A stretch of DNA of 35,460 nucleotides from Verrucomicrobiaceae bacterium. Lineage in GTDB: Bacteria > Verrucomicrobiota > Verrucomicrobiia > Verrucomicrobiales > DEV007. Below are positions 21,542 through 29,372 of this stretch, in pieces (within the stretch, counting starts at the first letter, position 1; every line of letters starts with the position of its first letter). The stretch lies in the NCBI GenBank assembly GCA_012719225.1, contig JAAYAT010000037.1, positions 1-35,460 on the forward strand, written 5' to 3'. The notes beneath the pieces are model-generated. The model did not search any database, was not told the origin of the DNA, and saw nothing but the letters and a program-made list of their open reading frames with translations. The translations under genes and the position numbers were made by a program.

Positions 21542-22378
21542 TCACGAACGCAGCCGTTTCACGAAGAAGGATCCGGAGTAAATGGCCACGGCGAGGAGGA
21601 CGATAAACGGTCCGGTGGGGATGTCCAGTTCGTAGCTGAAAGCGAGTCCTCCGGCGTTGCAGATCATCGTGATCACGATGGACACAATCATGATGACCCA
21701 GAGCTTCCGCGAAAAATGCGAAGCGGTCGCGGCGGGGAGGACGATGAGGGCGAGGGAGAGGATGATGCCGGCGATTCGGACCATGAGCACGACGCTCATC
21801 GCGGTGATGGCGAGGAGGAGCAGGTAATAAGCGCTGGAGGAGACCCCGCGGAGGCGGGCGAATTCCTCGTCGAAACAGACTGCGACCAGCTTGTGATAAA
21901 AGAGGATGACGAGGAGCAGGACGATGGCACCGAGGACAAAGGTGGCGACGACATCGCTGCGGGAGGTGAGCAGGATGTTCCCGAAGATGAAGCTTTCGAG
22001 ATTGACGCTTTTTCCGGGGGCGTAGTGAATGAACAAGAGCCCCACCGTCATCCCGAAGGCCCAGATCGCCCCGATGATGGTGTCCTCCCTCTCCCCGCAT
22101 TTGAGGCTGACCCAGCCGATCACTGCGGCGGAGAGGAGTCCGGCGATGATCGCTCCGATCATCGGGGTGAGCCAGGGCAGGTCATAGACCCGGCTGTAAT
22201 AGATCGAAGCCCCGATGCCGCCGAGGATGCTGTGGGCGATCGCGGCGGCGATGTAGGCGATGCGCCGGGTCACGACGAGGGAACCGACCACGCCGAAGGT
22301 GAGGCTGGAGACGATTCCCGCGATGAGGGAATAGCGGATCAGCGGGACCGTCTCCAGGGCTTCGAGGAAATCAGTCAT
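21542..22378 (-). CDS. znuB: Zinc ABC transporter permease
   Basis: 278-residue inner-membrane permease of the ABC-3 (metal) family, moving Zn(II) into the cytoplasm with ZnuC and ZnuA. Seven or eight hydrophobic helices; IAYIAAAIAHSILGGIGASIYY is the conserved early segment, and MVRIAGIILSLALIVLPAATA with the following SRKLWV is the family signature near the coupling loop. ATG 22378 overlaps the end of znuC by 8 bases (a GTG at 22384 is also in frame), showing translational coupling. Metal choice (Zn rather than Mn or Fe) is inferred from the His-rich ZnuA and His-rich outer-membrane partner. Confidence 0.92.
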   Translation of the reverse strand: MTDFLEALETVPLIRYSLIAGIVSSLTFGVVGSLVVTRRIAYIAAAIAHSILGGIGASIYYSRVYDLPWLTPMIGAIIAGLLSAAVIGWVSLKCGEREDTIIGAIWAFGMTVGLLFIHYAPGKSVNLESFIFGNILLTSRSDVVATFVLGAIVLLLVILFYHKLVAVCFDEEFARLRGVSSSAYYLLLLAITAMSVVLMVRIAGIILSLALIVLPAATASHFSRKLWVIMIVSIVITMICNAGGLAFSYELDIPTGPFIVLLAVAIYSGSFFVKRLRS

Positions 22379-23165
22379 GGTCACAGGCGGAGTGGTCTCC
22401 CTCGATGTGCCGGGAGCGGCGGTCGTGCTCGATGCGGCGTCGGCTGCTGTAGATTTCCTTGATCGTGTCTCCCGAGAGGGGCAGGGAATGTCGGTGGACG
22501 CGGTGGTTCACGCAGAGGACAGAATCCCCGAGGGAGGACACCAGATCGAGATCGTGGGTGACCATCAGGATGGTCAGCTTGCGACGCAGCGCACAGAGGG
22601 TTTCCATCAGCTGCGCCTCCACCGAGAGGTCGATGTTCGCGGTGGGTTCGTCGAGGAGGAGCAGCTCGGGTTCGCAGGCGAGGGCGCGGGCGATCATGAC
22701 GCGCTGGCGCTCCCCGCCGGAGAGGTCGGAAAAGGGACGCCGGGAAAAATCCGCCATGCCGACCTCGTCGAGCGCCTCGAGGGCGGCAGCGCGACATTTG
22801 CGGGAGAATGAACCGATGACGAGCCGGTCGAGCCGCCCCATCAGCACGATGTCGAGCGCCGAAATGGGGAATTGGGCATCGAAACGCATCGCCTGGGGGA
22901 CGTATCCCATGGCCCGCTGGGCTTTCCGGGGCGTCCGTCCGAGAACCTGCAAGGACCCCCGCGCCGGTTCGATGAGACCGAGGATGAGCTTGACGAGGGT
23001 GGATTTGCCTCCGCCGTTGGGTCCGATGACGCAGAGGGATTCCCCGCGGTGGATGCAAAAATTCACATCTTCGAGGACGAACGCCTTCCCGTATCCGAAG
23101 CAGAGGTCGCGACAATCGACGAGCACCGGCGCGTCGGGCGCGGGAGTTGGTTCGGTCGGTTTCAC
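22371..23165 (-). CDS. znuC: Zinc ABC transporter ATPase
   Basis: 264-residue ATPase of the metal ABC importer. Walker A GPNGGGKST, Q-loop PQAMRFDAQFPIS, signature LSGGERQRVMIARAL, Walker B LLLLDEPTANID and H-loop THDLD are all present. The C-terminus is His-rich (HRVHRHS, IEHDRRSRHIEGDHSACDHD), as in several ZnuC proteins, and could bind metal. The frame stays open upstream through the znuA end; GTG 23165 (MKPTEPTPAPDAP...) is the most reasonable start because it precedes the conserved VLVDCRDLCFGYG by a short linker. No Shine-Dalgarno is visible. It lies 89 bases after the znuA stop. Confidence 0.92.
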   Translation of the reverse strand: MKPTEPTPAPDAPVLVDCRDLCFGYGKAFVLEDVNFCIHRGESLCVIGPNGGGKSTLVKLILGLIEPARGSLQVLGRTPRKAQRAMGYVPQAMRFDAQFPISALDIVLMGRLDRLVIGSFSRKCRAAALEALDEVGMADFSRRPFSDLSGGERQRVMIARALACEPELLLLDEPTANIDLSVEAQLMETLCALRRKLTILMVTHDLDLVSSLGDSVLCVNHRVHRHSLPLSGDTIKEIYSSRRRIEHDRRSRHIEGDHSACDHD

Positions 23166-23254: not shown

Positions 23255-24196
23255 TCACCGGGCGGAACGGATCGTCTTCGCGATGAGGCGGAGATTCGCC
23301 ATGATGTCTTTCTCCAGAGGGTCGAGAGTCTGCACTTTTCCCCCTATCGTTTCGGCGAGAGATTCGGCGCTGGATTGGTCGAACTGCGGTTGGACGAAAA
23401 TCACTTTGACGCCTTCTGCTTTGGCGCGTTTGGCCACTTCGGCGACTTGTCGGGGACTGGGGCTGCGTCCGGCCAGTTCGATGGATTTCTGGGTCAGTCC
23501 GTAGTCGGCGGCGAAGTAGGCGAAGGCCCCGTGGTAGACGTAGATGGTCGAATTTTTCACCGGTGCGAGCGTCTCCGTGAGATCCCGGTCGAGCTGTTTG
23601 AGGTCGCTCTCGAGGGCGGCGAGATTGGCGTCGATTTCCGGAGAGGCTTCGGCCGGAGTGTGCGCTTTGAGGATGGCGGCGATGCGTCCGGCCTGGTGGA
23701 GGAGCATCTTCGGGGAGAGCCAAACATGCGGGTCGCGCAGATCATCGTGGTCATGATCGTGCTCGTGGTCGTCCTTCTCGGCGGCGTCGCCTTTCTCTTC
23801 GGCGTGCTCGTGGTCGTGGTCGTGATCCACTTCGCATTCGCTGCAACTGTCGGCGAGGAGTTCGAGTCCTTCGAGGAGGTCGATGTCCTTGGGCGAATGG
23901 ATGCCGTCCCCCAGCGCGACGAAAAAGTTGGCTTCAAAAGAGATCCCGCCGGAGAAAATCAAGTTGGCTTTGGAAATCTCGGTGATCTGGCGGGGCGAGG
24001 GGGAATAATTGTGGGCATCGTCTCCTTTCTGCACGATCGCCTTGACCTCGATCCAATCCCCTCCGATGCGCTCGAGCAGATATTCGTAGGGCAGGATGGG
24101 GACAAAGACGCGGAGCTTCTCCGGCTTTTCCGCGGCGGCGGCGTTGAGACCGAAGGCGAGGAGGAGAAGGGCGAGGGCGGGGGACAGTGCTTTCAT
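23255..24196 (-). CDS. znuA: Zinc-binding periplasmic protein of the ZnuABC importer
   Basis: 313 residues, cluster A-I metal-binding protein. The signal peptide is MKALSPALALLLLAFGLNAAAA. Expected ligands are visible: H62 (DDAHNYSPSPRQ), H157 (DPHVWLSP), H222 (YHGAFAYFAADYG) and D292 (TLDPLEKD). An acidic His-rich loop (about 124-151; DHDHDHEH, DDHEHDHDHDD), the hallmark of zinc-specific members, sits between the first two ligands and is preceded by CSEC (118-121). It captures Zn(II) in the periplasm and delivers it to ZnuB. Transcribed with the upstream HMA protein and downstream znuC/znuB. Confidence 0.95.
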   Translation of the reverse strand: MKALSPALALLLLAFGLNAAAAEKPEKLRVFVPILPYEYLLERIGGDWIEVKAIVQKGDDAHNYSPSPRQITEISKANLIFSGGISFEANFFVALGDGIHSPKDIDLLEGLELLADSCSECEVDHDHDHEHAEEKGDAAEKDDHEHDHDHDDLRDPHVWLSPKMLLHQAGRIAAILKAHTPAEASPEIDANLAALESDLKQLDRDLTETLAPVKNSTIYVYHGAFAYFAADYGLTQKSIELAGRSPSPRQVAEVAKRAKAEGVKVIFVQPQFDQSSAESLAETIGGKVQTLDPLEKDIMANLRLIAKTIRSAR

Positions 24197-24228: not shown

Positions 24229-24534
24229 TCAACCGGCCTTGGTCCAACTGATGATTTCGTAATGCGAGTCCTTGCCGAGGGCTTTGTTGGCGTCGGCCCG
24301 TGAAATCTCCGCGGTGCCGTCGGTGACGATGGTGAGCTGGTGCTGGTCTTTGCCCAGCTTGGTGATGCGGATCGTTTTGACTCCCTTGATTTTGCCGAGG
24401 GCGCGGCTGATCGTTTTTTTGCAGCCGGCGCATTCGATCCCCTTCATCTTCGCGGTGTAGGAGGTCTCCGCCGCGAAGGCCGCTTGCGAGAGGAACAGGC
24501 TCAAGAGGAGAAGACAGGTGGAGAGGGCTTTCAT
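24229..24534 (-). CDS. Periplasmic heavy-metal-associated (HMA) domain protein in the zinc operon
   Basis: 101 residues. A signal peptide (MKALSTCLLLLSLFLSQAAFA) is followed by a single MerP/CopZ-like HMA domain with metal motif GIECAGCKK (C35, C38), then a domain end VTDGTAEISRADANKALGKDSHYEI. It is the first gene of the leftward zinc operon, 32 bases before znuA. HMA proteins usually carry Cu(I), Hg(II) or Zn(II); here the context points to zinc handling in the periplasm, perhaps handing metal to ZnuA (inference). Its signal peptide begins MKALS, like that of ZnuA. Confidence 0.9.
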   Translation of the reverse strand: MKALSTCLLLLSLFLSQAAFAAETSYTAKMKGIECAGCKKTISRALGKIKGVKTIRITKLGKDQHQLTIVTDGTAEISRADANKALGKDSHYEIISWTKAG

Positions 24535-24566
24535 AGGGAAAAAATAGGAAAAAAGGGATGCCGTTA

Positions 24567-24645
24567 ACGCAAGTTACTTGCATAAAATACTTGCATTCGT
24601 TTTGCATTATGGCAGAAAGTTTTTACAAACGCAAACAATTTGCGT
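24567..24645. promoter_or_regulatory. Divergent control region of the zinc locus, with putative Zur-type operators
   Basis: Between the leftward hma-znuACB operon and the rightward outer-membrane gene. It contains GCAAG-TTA-CTTGC (24569-24581) and ACGCAAA-CAA-TTTGCGT (24629-24645). Both dyads share the core GCAA-N5-TTGC. TTGCAT occurs at 24578, 24591 and 24602. A leftward -10-like CATAAT (minus strand, 24611 to 24606) with TTGCGT 17 bases upstream is plausible. Fur-family zinc repressors (Zur) bind AT-rich dyads in such positions and release them when zinc is scarce. The repressor gene is not in the window. Confidence 0.6.
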
Positions 24646-24666
24646 ATGGGCAACCCCTCCAAAAGA

Positions 24667-25959
24667 ATGAAAAAAACCGCGCTGCTCTGTTCTCTTTTCT
24701 GGGTTTTTCTCCCCTTGGCGGCTCAGGAGACCGTCGAAAGCGATGCCGAGGTCTACGAATACCATGTCGGCGAGGTGGATTACCTCAGCGGCGAAGGGGT
24801 GAATCTCGGGGGATTTCTTTTTCCGAGCGTATTCGTTCAGGGCGCGGGCGGCGTTTTCGAACCGGGCGCCGGGGCCGGGGATGTCTCCACCACCGGGCAT
24901 GATCCCCAAAATGATTGGGGCGTCAGTGATATCCATCTCCATCTCGATCTCGACTTCGGAGGCAAAGTGACGGGCTCCGTGACGGGTTTCGGCCATCAGA
25001 CGGAAGACCACGTCTGGGAGGCGGAATTCGAGGAAGCGTATCTCCACTGGCGCATCAACGACACGCTTTCCATCGGCGGGGGGCAGTTTCGGAACGCCTT
25101 CGGTTTTCAGTCGGGCCTGCATCCCCACGATTGGTTTTTTGTGAACCAGAATCTGATCAACAGCCGCATGGTCAACGAGGGAGAGCTGATCTCCCAAGGG
25201 GGTGAGATCCTCGTGCGCACGCCCTCGAGCGGGTTGCTCACGTTCGGTCTGGGCGGAATCCGATCCCATTCCCACAACCACTCGCACAACCACGGAGGTC
25301 ACGGCGACCACGAAGACGAACATGGCGATGCGGACCATGACGAGCACGAAGAGGGCGAGGATCATCACGACGGCCATGACAGCGAGCCTCTCGAGATCGA
25401 CGACGCCGGATTCAAGAGCTGGGCTCTCACCACCGACTATCGCTTTCGCATGCCCTTCGACGAAAGCCTCACGGGCAGTCTCTCTCTCGGAGTGGGCGAG
25501 AACGGTTTCGGTCGCAATTCCACCCTCTACGGGGCGGGCCTTCGCAAGGTCTGGAACGGCCACGACCACGGTTCCGGTGGTCCCGATTTCTGCGCCGGGG
25601 CGACAATGTGGCAGGGGGAGCTGCTCGGGCGTAACGTCGATGTTTTTCTTGAGAATGGGGACCAGAGAACCTTCACCGACTACGGTTTTTCGAACTCACT
25701 CCACCACGGTCTCAGCGATCACGTCACCCTATCGCTGCGGCACGACTGGATCTCGGCGGTGGAAATCGCGGGGCTCGGTGATCGTCATCGCCTCTCCGCC
25801 GCTCTGACCGCCTTCGTCGATCCGGAGCAGCGGGTCCGCGCGCGGGTGCAATATGACTATCTGCGGGATGAGACCGTCGGCGGCGAACATGTCGCCTGGC
25901 TCCAGATCCAATGGCAATGGGGCGGCATCGGCGGTTCCCATGCGGGGCACGGGCATTGA
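24667..25959 (+). CDS. His-rich outer-membrane beta-barrel protein, probable zinc porin
   Basis: About 430 residues from ATG 24667 (ATG 24646 also in frame). The signal peptide is MKKTALLCSLFWVFLPLAA. The body alternates polar and hydrophobic residues in many short strands (VTGSVTGFGHQTEDHVWEAEFEEAYLHWRI, LTFGLGGIRSHSH, LTGSLSLGVGENGFG, HVTLSLRHDWISAVEI), and the last strand ends VAWLQIQWQWGG, as in porin-like barrels. A long His/Asp/Glu-rich loop (about residues 200-240; HNHSHNHGGHGDHEDEHGD) and a terminal SHAGHGH suggest zinc capture at the cell surface or in the pore. No TonB plug is seen, so passive or porin-type passage is inferred. Divergent from the zinc ABC importer and probably co-regulated with it. 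Confidence 0.85.
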   Translation: MKKTALLCSLFWVFLPLAAQETVESDAEVYEYHVGEVDYLSGEGVNLGGFLFPSVFVQGAGGVFEPGAGAGDVSTTGHDPQNDWGVSDIHLHLDLDFGGKVTGSVTGFGHQTEDHVWEAEFEEAYLHWRINDTLSIGGGQFRNAFGFQSGLHPHDWFFVNQNLINSRMVNEGELISQGGEILVRTPSSGLLTFGLGGIRSHSHNHSHNHGGHGDHEDEHGDADHDEHEEGEDHHDGHDSEPLEIDDAGFKSWALTTDYRFRMPFDESLTGSLSLGVGENGFGRNSTLYGAGLRKVWNGHDHGSGGPDFCAGATMWQGELLGRNVDVFLENGDQRTFTDYGFSNSLHHGLSDHVTLSLRHDWISAVEIAGLGDRHRLSAALTAFVDPEQRVRARVQYDYLRDETVGGEHVAWLQIQWQWGGIGGSHAGHGH

Positions 25960-26106: not shown

Positions 26107-27199
<1,093 letters not shown>

Positions 27200-27230
27200 T
27201 CTCCCCCTTCAGATCCATTCTTTTAGCATG

Positions 27231-27270
27231 AGAAAGCGCCCCCGACAGATCCGTTGGCGGGCGCTTTTCT
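27231..27270 (+). terminator. Intrinsic terminator between gapA and pgk
   Basis: AGAAAGCGCCC (27231-27241) pairs with GGGCGCTTTTCT (27259-27270) with one extra A:T position, around a loop of about 17 bases whose ends (CCGA/TTGG) can also pair with wobble. The T-run TTTTCT is part of the stem. It may be an attenuating rather than a complete stop, giving more gapA than pgk/tpiA transcript (inference). Confidence 0.6.
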
Positions 27271-27351
27271 GCCATTAGCTCTCTCCCCGGAAAACGGACC
27301 ACCGCATTTGGAGCGGACGTCGCTCCTTTCCCCTCTTCTCCTCCCTATCTC

Positions 27352-28554
27352 ATGGCCAAACTCTCTCTTCGTGACCTCGCTCCCGCCGGTCGTCGTGTTC
27401 TCATGCGCGTCGACTTCAACGTCCCGCTCAACAGCGCCGGGGAGATCACCGACGACACCCGGATCACGGCGGCGATTCCCTCGATCGAGTTCCTCGCGAA
27501 GGCGGGCGCTCGCGTCATTCTGATGTCCCATCTGGGGCGTCCCAAGGGCACCCCGGAGGCGAAATATTCCCTCCAACCTGCCGCCGCTCGTCTCGATGAG
27601 CTCCTCGCCGTCCCGGTGAAATTCGTCGACGACTGCATCGGGGAGAAAGCGGATGCGGCGGTCGCGGATCTCAAGGACGGCGAAGTGCTCCTGCTGGAGA
27701 ACGTGCGCTTCCACGCCGGAGAAGAGAAGAACGACCCCGAATTTTCCCGGCAACTCGCCGCGCACGGCGACATCTACGTGAACGACGCTTTCGGAACGGC
27801 CCACCGCGCCCACGCCTCGACCGTAGGGGTGACGCAATTCATCGACCAATGCGCGATGGGTTTCCTCATTGAAAAGGAGCTGGAATACCTCGTCGACAAA
27901 CTGGAGAACCCCGCCCGTCCTTTTGTCGTGATCATGGGTGGGGCCAAGGTCTCGGACAAAATCGAGGTACTGAACCGCCTCATGGAAAAAGCCGATGCCT
28001 TCATCATCGGCGGGGCGATGGCCAACACCTTCCGCCTCGCCCAGGGCTACCAAATCGGCAAGAGCCTCGCCGAGCCGGACAAAACCGATCTCGCCTTGCG
28101 GATCCTCGAAACCGCCGAGAAGAACCAAACCGAGTTCCTCCTTCCCGCCGACACCCGCCACACCGCCGAGTTCGCCGACGACGCTCCCACCGAGGTCACC
28201 GAGGTATGGGGCGAGGGCGGTGCCATTCCCGCCGAGCGCGAGGGCATCGACATCGGCGACCGCGCCATCGCCGATTTTTCCAAAAAGATCGCCGAAGCGG
28301 GCACCATCATCTGGAACGGCCCCATGGGCGTTTTTGAAAAGCGCGGCTTCGACATCGGCACGAAAGCGATCGGCAAGGCCATCGCGGAGAACACCAAGGC
28401 CGTCAAAATCGTCGGAGGCGGAGATTCGGTCACCGCGGCCAACCAGTTCGGATTCGGCGAGAAAATGGACCATATGTCCACCGGAGGCGGTGCCTCCCTC
28501 GAGCTGCTCGAAGGCAAGGTCCTCCCCGGCATCGCCGCCCTCGACGAAAAATAA
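27352..28554 (+). CDS. pgk: Phosphoglycerate kinase
   Basis: 400-residue cytoplasmic kinase that transfers phosphate from 1,3-bisphosphoglycerate to ADP. RVDFNVPLN (D21, N23) and SHLGRPKG (H60, R63) form the substrate side. GEVLLLENVRFHAGEEKND, VNDAFGTAHRAHAST, VVIMGGAKVSDKI, WNGPMGVFE and the nucleotide site VKIVGGGDSVTA (about 353-363) are all intact, as is STGGGASLELLEG near the end. Full length, no anomalies. It lies 152 bases after gapA and 56 bases before tpiA; pgk and tpiA probably share a transcript. Confidence 0.97.
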   Translation: MAKLSLRDLAPAGRRVLMRVDFNVPLNSAGEITDDTRITAAIPSIEFLAKAGARVILMSHLGRPKGTPEAKYSLQPAAARLDELLAVPVKFVDDCIGEKADAAVADLKDGEVLLLENVRFHAGEEKNDPEFSRQLAAHGDIYVNDAFGTAHRAHASTVGVTQFIDQCAMGFLIEKELEYLVDKLENPARPFVVIMGGAKVSDKIEVLNRLMEKADAFIIGGAMANTFRLAQGYQIGKSLAEPDKTDLALRILETAEKNQTEFLLPADTRHTAEFADDAPTEVTEVWGEGGAIPAEREGIDIGDRAIADFSKKIAEAGTIIWNGPMGVFEKRGFDIGTKAIGKAIAENTKAVKIVGGGDSVTAANQFGFGEKMDHMSTGGGASLELLEGKVLPGIAALDEK

Positions 28555-28569
28555 GAATCAAAAAATTTC

Positions 28570-28606
28570 CAGCTAAAAAGCAAAACAGCTAAAAGCTAAA
28601 AAGCTA
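28570..28606 (+). repeat. AGCTAAAA direct repeats in the pgk-tpiA gap
   Basis: AGCTAAAA or close variants occur four times (28570-28606), ending 5 bases before the tpiA start. The tract is strikingly AT-rich for this genome. It is probably an unstructured, A-rich translation enhancer in place of a Shine-Dalgarno, or slippage-generated. Confidence 0.6.
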
Positions 28607-28610
28607 CCCC

Positions 28611-29372
28611 ATGAGCCGCAAGACCATCATCGCCGCCAATTGGAAGATGAACATGACTCCGTCCGAGACGGCCGTCTTTCTCGAGCCTTTCCTCCAGAGC
28701 TTCCCCGAAGCCACCGCCGCCGACATCGTCATCGCCCCGCCCTTCGTCTCACTCGCGAAGGCCGCCGAAGGCCTCGGCGCGCATCCCGCCGTGGCTCTGG
28801 CTGCGCAGAACATGTCCCACGAGGCCTCCGGCGCGTTCACCGGTGAGACCAGCGCCGCGATGCTCGGGGATGTCGGTTGCGCCTACGTGATTCTCGGCCA
28901 CAGCGAGCGCCGCTCGCTCTACGGCGAAGGGGATTCTGTCATCAATCAAAAAGTCCACGCCGCTCTCGCCGCCGGGCTCAAGCCCATCCTCTGCATCGGG
29001 GAATCCCTCGAAGAACGGGACGGCGGACAACTGGAATTCGTCCTCTCGCAGCAACTCGAGGGCAGCCTCGCCGGGATCGCCGCCGCCGCGATGGCCGACA
29101 TCGTCATTGCCTACGAACCCGTCTGGGCGATCGGCACCGGACGCACCGCCTCGCCCGAGCAGGCGCAGGAGACCCAGGCCTACGTCCGCAGCGTCCTCGC
29201 AAACCTCTTCGGCGGGAAAGTGGCCGGGGCGACCCGCATCCAGTACGGCGGCAGTGTCAAACCGGGCAACGCCGCCGAACTCATCTCCCAACCGGACATC
29301 GACGGGTTCCTCGTCGGCGGGGCCAGCCTCGATCCGACGAGTTTCGCCGAGATCATTCGAGCCTCGCTTTGA
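28611..29372 (+). CDS. tpiA: Triosephosphate isomerase
   Basis: 253-residue TIM-barrel enzyme interconverting dihydroxyacetone phosphate and glyceraldehyde-3-phosphate. Catalytic residues: N10 and K12 (AANWKMN), H97 (ILGHSERR) and E169 (IAYEPVWAIGTG). Phosphate-binding IQYGGSVKPGNA and FLVGGASLDP are present. Length is typical. ATG 28611 is 56 bases after the pgk stop. The last codons form the left arm of a putative terminator hairpin. Confidence 0.97.
   Translation: MSRKTIIAANWKMNMTPSETAVFLEPFLQSFPEATAADIVIAPPFVSLAKAAEGLGAHPAVALAAQNMSHEASGAFTGETSAAMLGDVGCAYVILGHSERRSLYGEGDSVINQKVHAALAAGLKPILCIGESLEERDGGQLEFVLSQQLEGSLAGIAAAAMADIVIAYEPVWAIGTGRTASPEQAQETQAYVRSVLANLFGGKVAGATRIQYGGSVKPGNAAELISQPDIDGFLVGGASLDPTSFAEIIRASL

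Follow-up and report, generated by a model that had tools for sequence, protein, structure and literature searches.

Periplasmic proteins encoded together with ABC transporters have been described in two systems close to the locus reported here. In Paracoccus denitrificans, AztABCD is a zinc ABC importer whose periplasmic chaperone, AztD, transfers zinc directly to the binding protein, AztC (PMC6689063), and in Pseudomonas aeruginosa the zinc-starvation protein PA4063 (PA4063-PA4066) is a periplasmic zinc protein of ferredoxin-like fold that is expressed with an ABC transporter (PMC8561739). Our locus shares with AztABCD the joining of an importer and a periplasmic protein in one operon, but in place of AztD it has a 101-aa HMA domain with a CxxC motif, and a divergent outer-membrane barrel is placed on the shared control region. 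With PA4063 it has in common that a small periplasmic protein with a ferredoxin-like fold is encoded alongside an ABC transporter; PA4063, however, has a non-canonical topology and uses His-rich loops, whereas ours is a genuine HMA domain whose site is Cys-based, and it comes in addition to a full ZnuABC. The locus is a member of neither type. ZnuABC with the TonB-dependent ZnuD offers a further comparison, i.e. an inner-membrane ZnuABC, an outer-membrane protein with a His-rich loop and Zur-type control, the last of which we infer for the present case. The barrel differs from ZnuD in having 16 predicted strands and no plug, no expected dependence on TonB and no recognisable sequence relation, and judging from its model it is not a ZnuD-type receptor. 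The HMA protein resembles the N-terminal domain of ZntA in its fold and in the acidic residue before CxxC, and MerP in its fold and its exported single-domain form (without reaching the cut-off of the MerP model), but unlike these it belongs to an import operon with an operator of the zinc-starvation type. All parts are thus of known kinds, and what is new is the combination of an import-side HMA carrier with a plug-less HxH porin. Apart from TonB-dependent receptors, little is known of how zinc passes the outer membrane, and we know of no earlier HMA-domain protein that carries zinc during import; the present one would be the first.

The window, i.e. the whole stretch of DNA analyzed, comprises 35,460 nucleotides of a Verrucomicrobiaceae bacterium contig (JAAYAT010000037.1). 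Open reading frames and Pfam matches place the barrel gene (plus strand) opposite HMA-znuA-znuC-znuB (minus strand), around a 132-bp control region. The initial annotation had proposed that ZnuACB, an exported HMA protein and a divergent His-rich barrel share one control region, which the gene calls and Pfam matches bear out, and its placing of the HMA gene at the head of the znu operon agrees with the gene order, which is conserved with znu in relatives. Only 32 bp separate the HMA stop from the znuA start, making a single operon likely. The features of the locus are as follows:

21542-22384, minus strand: znuB, inner-membrane permease of the zinc ABC importer (PF00950, E=1.8e-61)
about 22371-23165, minus strand: znuC, ATPase (PF00005, from the translation; GTG at 23165, start codon uncertain)
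23255-24196, minus strand: znuA, periplasmic zinc-binding protein (PF01297, E=1.6e-58)
23741-23845, minus strand: ZnuA CSEC (residues 118-121) followed by a His-rich loop to residue 152 (motif conservation)
24229-24534, minus strand: exported HMA protein, 101 aa, first gene of the operon (PF00403)
24262-24264, minus strand: HMA H91, possible third ligand (invariance and secondary structure)
24421-24435, minus strand: HMA metal-site motif E34-C35-A-G-C38 (alignments)
24567-24583, no strand: operator box 1, ACGCAAGTTACTTGCAT, 32 bp 5' of the HMA start, perfect match to AYGCAANNNNNTTGCRT
24591-24607, no strand: operator box 2, degenerate, TTGCATTCGTTTTGCAT, 2 mismatches
24629-24645, no strand: operator box 3, ACGCAAACAATTTGCGT, 21 bp 5' of the barrel start, perfect match
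24667-25959, plus strand: 16-strand outer-membrane porin-type barrel without plug, 430 aa, likely start ATG 24667 (AlphaFold model, Foldseek)
25120-25128, plus strand: barrel loop 3 HPH (H152, H154), putative zinc eyelet (conservation)
25264-25395, plus strand: barrel loop 4 (strands 7-8), His/Asp/Glu-rich, predicted extracellular (alignment; low model confidence)
25930-25956, plus strand: barrel C-terminal tail GGSHAGHGH, predicted periplasmic (alignment)

Directly 3' of the barrel gene lies an ordinary glycolysis cluster, gap-pgk-tpi (window 26201-29372), identified by reading only.

As in ZnuABC, PF01297, ABC_tran and ABC-3 domains are found in one operon and ZnuA has a His-rich loop. ZnuA scores 131.6 bits against an NCBIfam ZnuA equivalog cut-off of 268, for which reason the importer is filed as ZnuABC-type, cluster A-I, and not as a curated equivalog. 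The gene order around znuC is kept in relatives, and ZnuB is 64-90% identical in those with the divergon. Beside the ZnuA His-loop, a CxxC or C[DE]HPS[HQ] motif occurs in 32 of the 33 copies examined from HMA-bearing genomes; the four copies from genomes without HMA have no Cys, one Cys, one Cys and CHEC, respectively. The CxxC/CDHPSH residues are likely ligands, and they fit a Cys-His relay between the HMA protein and ZnuA, a correlation drawn from related genomes only.

The secreted protein had been taken for an HMA (CxxC) protein, an identity which holds: PF00403, the only Pfam match, scores 28.1 bits against a gathering cut-off of 24.8, with no match to the ZrgA profile (PF10986). The N-terminus resembles a signal peptide, and the protein is predicted to be exported. 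AlphaFold models the mature domain as beta-alpha-beta-beta-alpha-beta, with a pLDDT of about 94-98 over most of its length; the CxxC and, in the model, the fold of an HMA domain are both present. The fold search with this model was unspecific, circular permutants of ribosomal protein S6 outscoring metal domains, and HMA membership is thus assigned from the sequence profile. The zinc ATPase ZntA characteristically has an acidic residue ahead of its CxxC, and among the structural matches listed the ZntA N-terminal domain (1mwy) has the highest identity (26%, Z 8.7). In the operator-linked set, residue 34 is E or D without exception, and the invariant residues in the alignments include C35, C38, K39, H91, Y92 and W97. 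H91 is situated in loop 5, just before strand 4, which in the HMA fold is next to the CxxC loop, and may be a third ligand. The likely ligands are accordingly, from conservation, the CxxC with its preceding E/D and the invariant His. MerP (TIGR02052) was the best NCBIfam match but with 33.5 bits against an equivalog cut-off of 92.55, and membership of that family was rejected.

For the barrel, Pfam gave no family above cut-off and no TonB plug match; BBP2 (PF07642) scored 13.8 bits (cut-off 26.2) and Porin_O_P (PF07396) did not match the window protein, each of the two matching weakly (E>=0.0027) in 3 of 23 barrel members. The AlphaFold model, built on only 23 related sequences, has 16 strands and no plug (mean pLDDT 74.7, pTM 0.72), with short helices in loop 3 (strands 5-6) and the His-rich stretch as a low-confidence loop 4 (strands 7-8). 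Neither the N-terminal plug nor the 22-strand barrel of TonB-dependent receptors was found. Model and Foldseek instead indicate, at moderate confidence, a general 16-strand porin with a long loop 3, the matches being general porins (OmpM1, Omp32, OmpF; E down to 4.5e-11), and the earlier description of the barrel as porin-type and free of a TonB plug is supported by the model. A PDB sequence search with the barrel profile yielded nothing useful. Five residues, namely H152 and H154 (the loop 3 HxH), H78, E122 and E123, are invariant in 36/36 homologs down to about 25% identity, and the HxH residues are likely zinc ligands. A His-rich C-terminal tail is found in nearly all of the 23 genus and family barrels aligned. 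No description of His-rich zinc porins was found in the open-licence literature.

In a search of 142 relatives, the barrel had matches in 82 and HMA in 90, the latter forming two main groups, of which the one without internal stops adjoins the barrel. The initial annotation had made its reading depend on conservation next to znu in relatives, and such conservation was found. Of the 34 genus genomes, 27 have a znu-type HMA and 25 of these also the barrel (counted from homolog matches), and in genus and family the two genes are divergent neighbors in 30 of 33 loci read, a recurrence that chance does not account for. Exceptions are G028, G023 and also G002, where the contig ends. In most paired loci with enough contig, HMA is followed by znuA, usually together with znuC-znuB. 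Four genomes (G011, G014, G022 and G032) keep barrel and ZnuA but have no HMA of the znu type, from which it follows that HMA is not essential, and in two (G001, G031) none of HMA, barrel and ZnuA was found. In another five (G017, G024, G025, G029 and G030) HMA adjoins the barrel and znuA is elsewhere in the genome. A pattern scan of 84,980 species returned 30 HMA loci, only from Verrucomicrobia MAGs and mostly labeled Verrucomicrobiales or Akkermansiaceae, with a profile-derived pattern that requires G[IV][ED]Cx[GAD]CK and would miss divergent relatives. The same locus is present in the record of a genus relative, Akkermansiaceae bacterium UBA6138 (L209).

Elsewhere in the family and order, in other genera, the barrel is the first gene of an operon for a different metal ABC importer, ZnuA2-X-ZnuC2-ZnuB2, without HMA; ZnuA and ZnuA2 are 22-25% identical. 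Operator-like boxes, read by eye, are often found upstream of these operons as well. The association of the barrel with two non-orthologous importers indicates that the coupling of porin and importer outlives the importer, and of the partners in metal ABC import the porin seems to be the older one, to which HMA and the present ZnuABC would have been added in the group of the window. Together with the invariant HxH in the predicted constriction loop, this opens a possible passage of zinc through a porin to direct testing. The view of the locus as a compact divergon consequently stands in part: pair and operator are conserved, but it is not one fixed unit, as HMA and barrel occur without adjacent ZnuACB in some genomes, and the barrel with another importer and no HMA elsewhere. 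Loci with barrel and other importer are L103, L240, L242 and L248-L253. In L103, a small exported-looking protein of no known family is encoded between the substrate-binding and ATPase genes, and several other loci have a gap of similar size.

The HMA/barrel control regions have in common a palindrome, AYGCAANNNNNTTGCRT, with the consensus AYGCAA-N5-TTGCRT, mostly in two to three copies per region. The single control region claimed for the locus thereby gains a conserved zinc-type operator, at least one site being present in 27/27 regions examined, window included, with 64 sites in total (at most one mismatch to a slightly looser form), as compared to a mean of 1.05 and a maximum of 4 in 200 shuffles. 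Box spacings of 23-24 and 37-38 bp recur among relatives. Throughout the 35-kb window there are just three matches with up to two mismatches (24567, 24591 and 24629), all in the HMA/barrel gap and two of them perfect. With a stricter pattern, 15 of the 34 genus genomes gave hits, whereas the reversed pattern used as control gave none; together with the shuffles, this rejects chance as the source of the operator. In the GC-rich window genome, the count with one mismatch allowed equals that of the control (8 and 8), and hence only perfect sites were used there, the genome-wide search being by pattern only. One site, on G000:C260 (L125), is probably due to chance, as it is situated 3' of a gene. 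Promoter and terminator consensus scans of the control region found none, such scans being uninformative for this phylum.

Outside the divergon, the operator precedes a ZigA-type gene for a zinc GTPase (612 bits against an NCBIfam equivalog cut-off of 600), whose divergent neighbor encodes a pyridine-nucleotide oxidoreductase. In relatives it is also found before MerC plus COG0523 genes and between an oxidoreductase and a HisI paralog, and most unlinked znuA genes read have it upstream. COG0523 GTPases and HisI paralogs are known members of Zur regulons (PMC2770081). The palindrome is thus common to known zinc-starvation genes (ZigA, znuA and MerC, with a HisI paralog nearby), and because all of these genes have it upstream, the operator of the divergon is in all likelihood a Zur box, which points to Zur control and would define a Zur-like regulon for Verrucomicrobiales; no description of Verrucomicrobial Zur regulons was found in the open-licence literature. 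In G024, a Fur-family gene is located between HMA and barrel. For the window genome, the candidate is the Fur-family gene L140 3005-3439 (G000:C207), whose product is, with 33% identity, the closest of three to the G024 protein and may be the regulator; generic Fur models score above the Zur model for it, all below cut-off.

Further gene families were seen near operator sites. A small lipoprotein family with an [ESTV]WPEL motif and no Pfam match has a perfect or near-perfect operator upstream in four genomes (L192, L194, L197 and, in the window genome with a perfect site, L135 3075-3575, G000:C158), and is a candidate new member of the Zur regulon. An uncharacterized family with a QQMYFWGRDVxHPxGN-like motif occurs beside ZigA/COG0523 or MerC genes (L191 3263-3871, L086 9463-10053, L204 2759-3427), with operator boxes near L191 and L204; the L191 member has no Pfam match. 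MerC-domain proteins, of a mercury family, are encoded with COG0523 GTPases, ZnuA or HMA in L195, L199, L203, L204, L104 and L086, several with the operator upstream, which suggests a zinc role for the operator-linked ones. The window genome (G000) has no MerC match.

Gene order, conservation, the operator, predicted folds and invariant residues form the basis of a model in which the locus encodes a Zur-controlled zinc-uptake line through all layers of the envelope, including a handover from the HMA protein to ZnuA, a reading that we consider rather probable. At low zinc, a Fur-family repressor (candidate L140) would leave the palindromic boxes between both promoters, and both arms would be made. 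The His/Asp-rich outer loop of the plug-less 16-strand porin would collect zinc, which would then pass an eyelet lined by the invariant loop 3 HxH. In the periplasm, the exported HMA protein would hold Zn(II) by E/D-C-x-x-C, perhaps with His91, and hand it to ZnuA, where the CxxC/CDHPSH at the base of the His-loop is a likely docking site or relay ligand, and ZnuBC would pump it into the cytoplasm. In this scheme we infer Zur as the binder, zinc as the metal, the porin as the entry and the HMA to ZnuA transfer. With the gene set kept in dozens of relatives, the locus seems to be a real zinc-uptake line that does without the energy-driven receptors of better-known bacteria. A more specific form, independent of TonB, in which HMA would receive zinc from a zinc-selective HxH porin and pass it on by thiol exchange to a matching CxxC/CDHPSH dock on ZnuA, is put forward tentatively and as a doubtful case; if true, such a thiol relay would be a periplasmic analog, for zinc import, of the cytosolic copper-chaperone relay.

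Besides zinc, CxxC sites of the HMA family bind Cu(I) and Hg(II), and the HMA protein could instead handle such ions where the zinc importer and porin, once de-repressed, would otherwise let them in, sparing ZnuA the wrong metals. Copper HMA domains make up most of its profile and structure matches, the best NCBIfam match is MerP and MerC-domain genes share the operator set in relatives; the MerP score is nevertheless far below cut-off, all operator-linked copies have the ZntA-like acidic residue before CxxC and the window genome has no MerC match, and we regard this role as quite improbable. Somewhat less so, but still unlikely, is that the protein acts as a zinc or heavy-metal buffer or sensor, protecting the periplasm or tuning ZnuA on sudden zinc return rather than delivering the metal. 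Zinc-type regulation, small size and the several genomes where HMA adjoins the barrel without ZnuA fit such a role. Cys-based E/D-C-x-x-C sites, however, as a rule have a far higher affinity than His sites in the micromolar range such as those of PA4063, and ZnuA carries matching Cys motifs. Buffer/sensor and delivery roles have both been proposed for PA4063 with its micromolar sites (PMC8561739).

On the outer-membrane side, the barrel could be a general porin, or one for anions, for which zinc is no more than a regulatory signal, its His-rich loop binding zinc only at the surface. There is a precedent in Pseudomonas OprD, a porin with zinc-dependent regulation of unexplained purpose (PMC10393844), and the Foldseek hits to general porins and the weak BBP2 and Porin_O_P matches go in the same direction. 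The link to two non-orthologous metal ABC importers, the invariance of the loop 3 HxH and the conserved operator speak against it, and we would give this explanation perhaps a minor chance, preferring a porin that admits zinc.

Paralogous HMAs elsewhere in the same genomes provide a contrast to the znu-linked form. In these, an in-frame UGA, read as selenocysteine, replaces the first Cys (UxxC), Thr or Val replaces the acidic residue and Arg (rarely Lys) replaces H91; the operator was found in 0/14 such loci scanned. This contrast argues for the acidic residue and the His as features of the zinc-starvation form. For the znu-linked HMA itself, selenocysteine was ruled out, as translation places internal UGA only in the unlinked paralogs. 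The second exported HMA (VTYVAGMTGVTUGGCK) was seen in relatives only (L107, L109-L112, L115-L123), not in the window genome, and it resembles the UxxU family NF041115 yet differs from it. Several of its genes adjoin mnmH, and some selD and selA, while L109 encodes two tandem UxxC domains.
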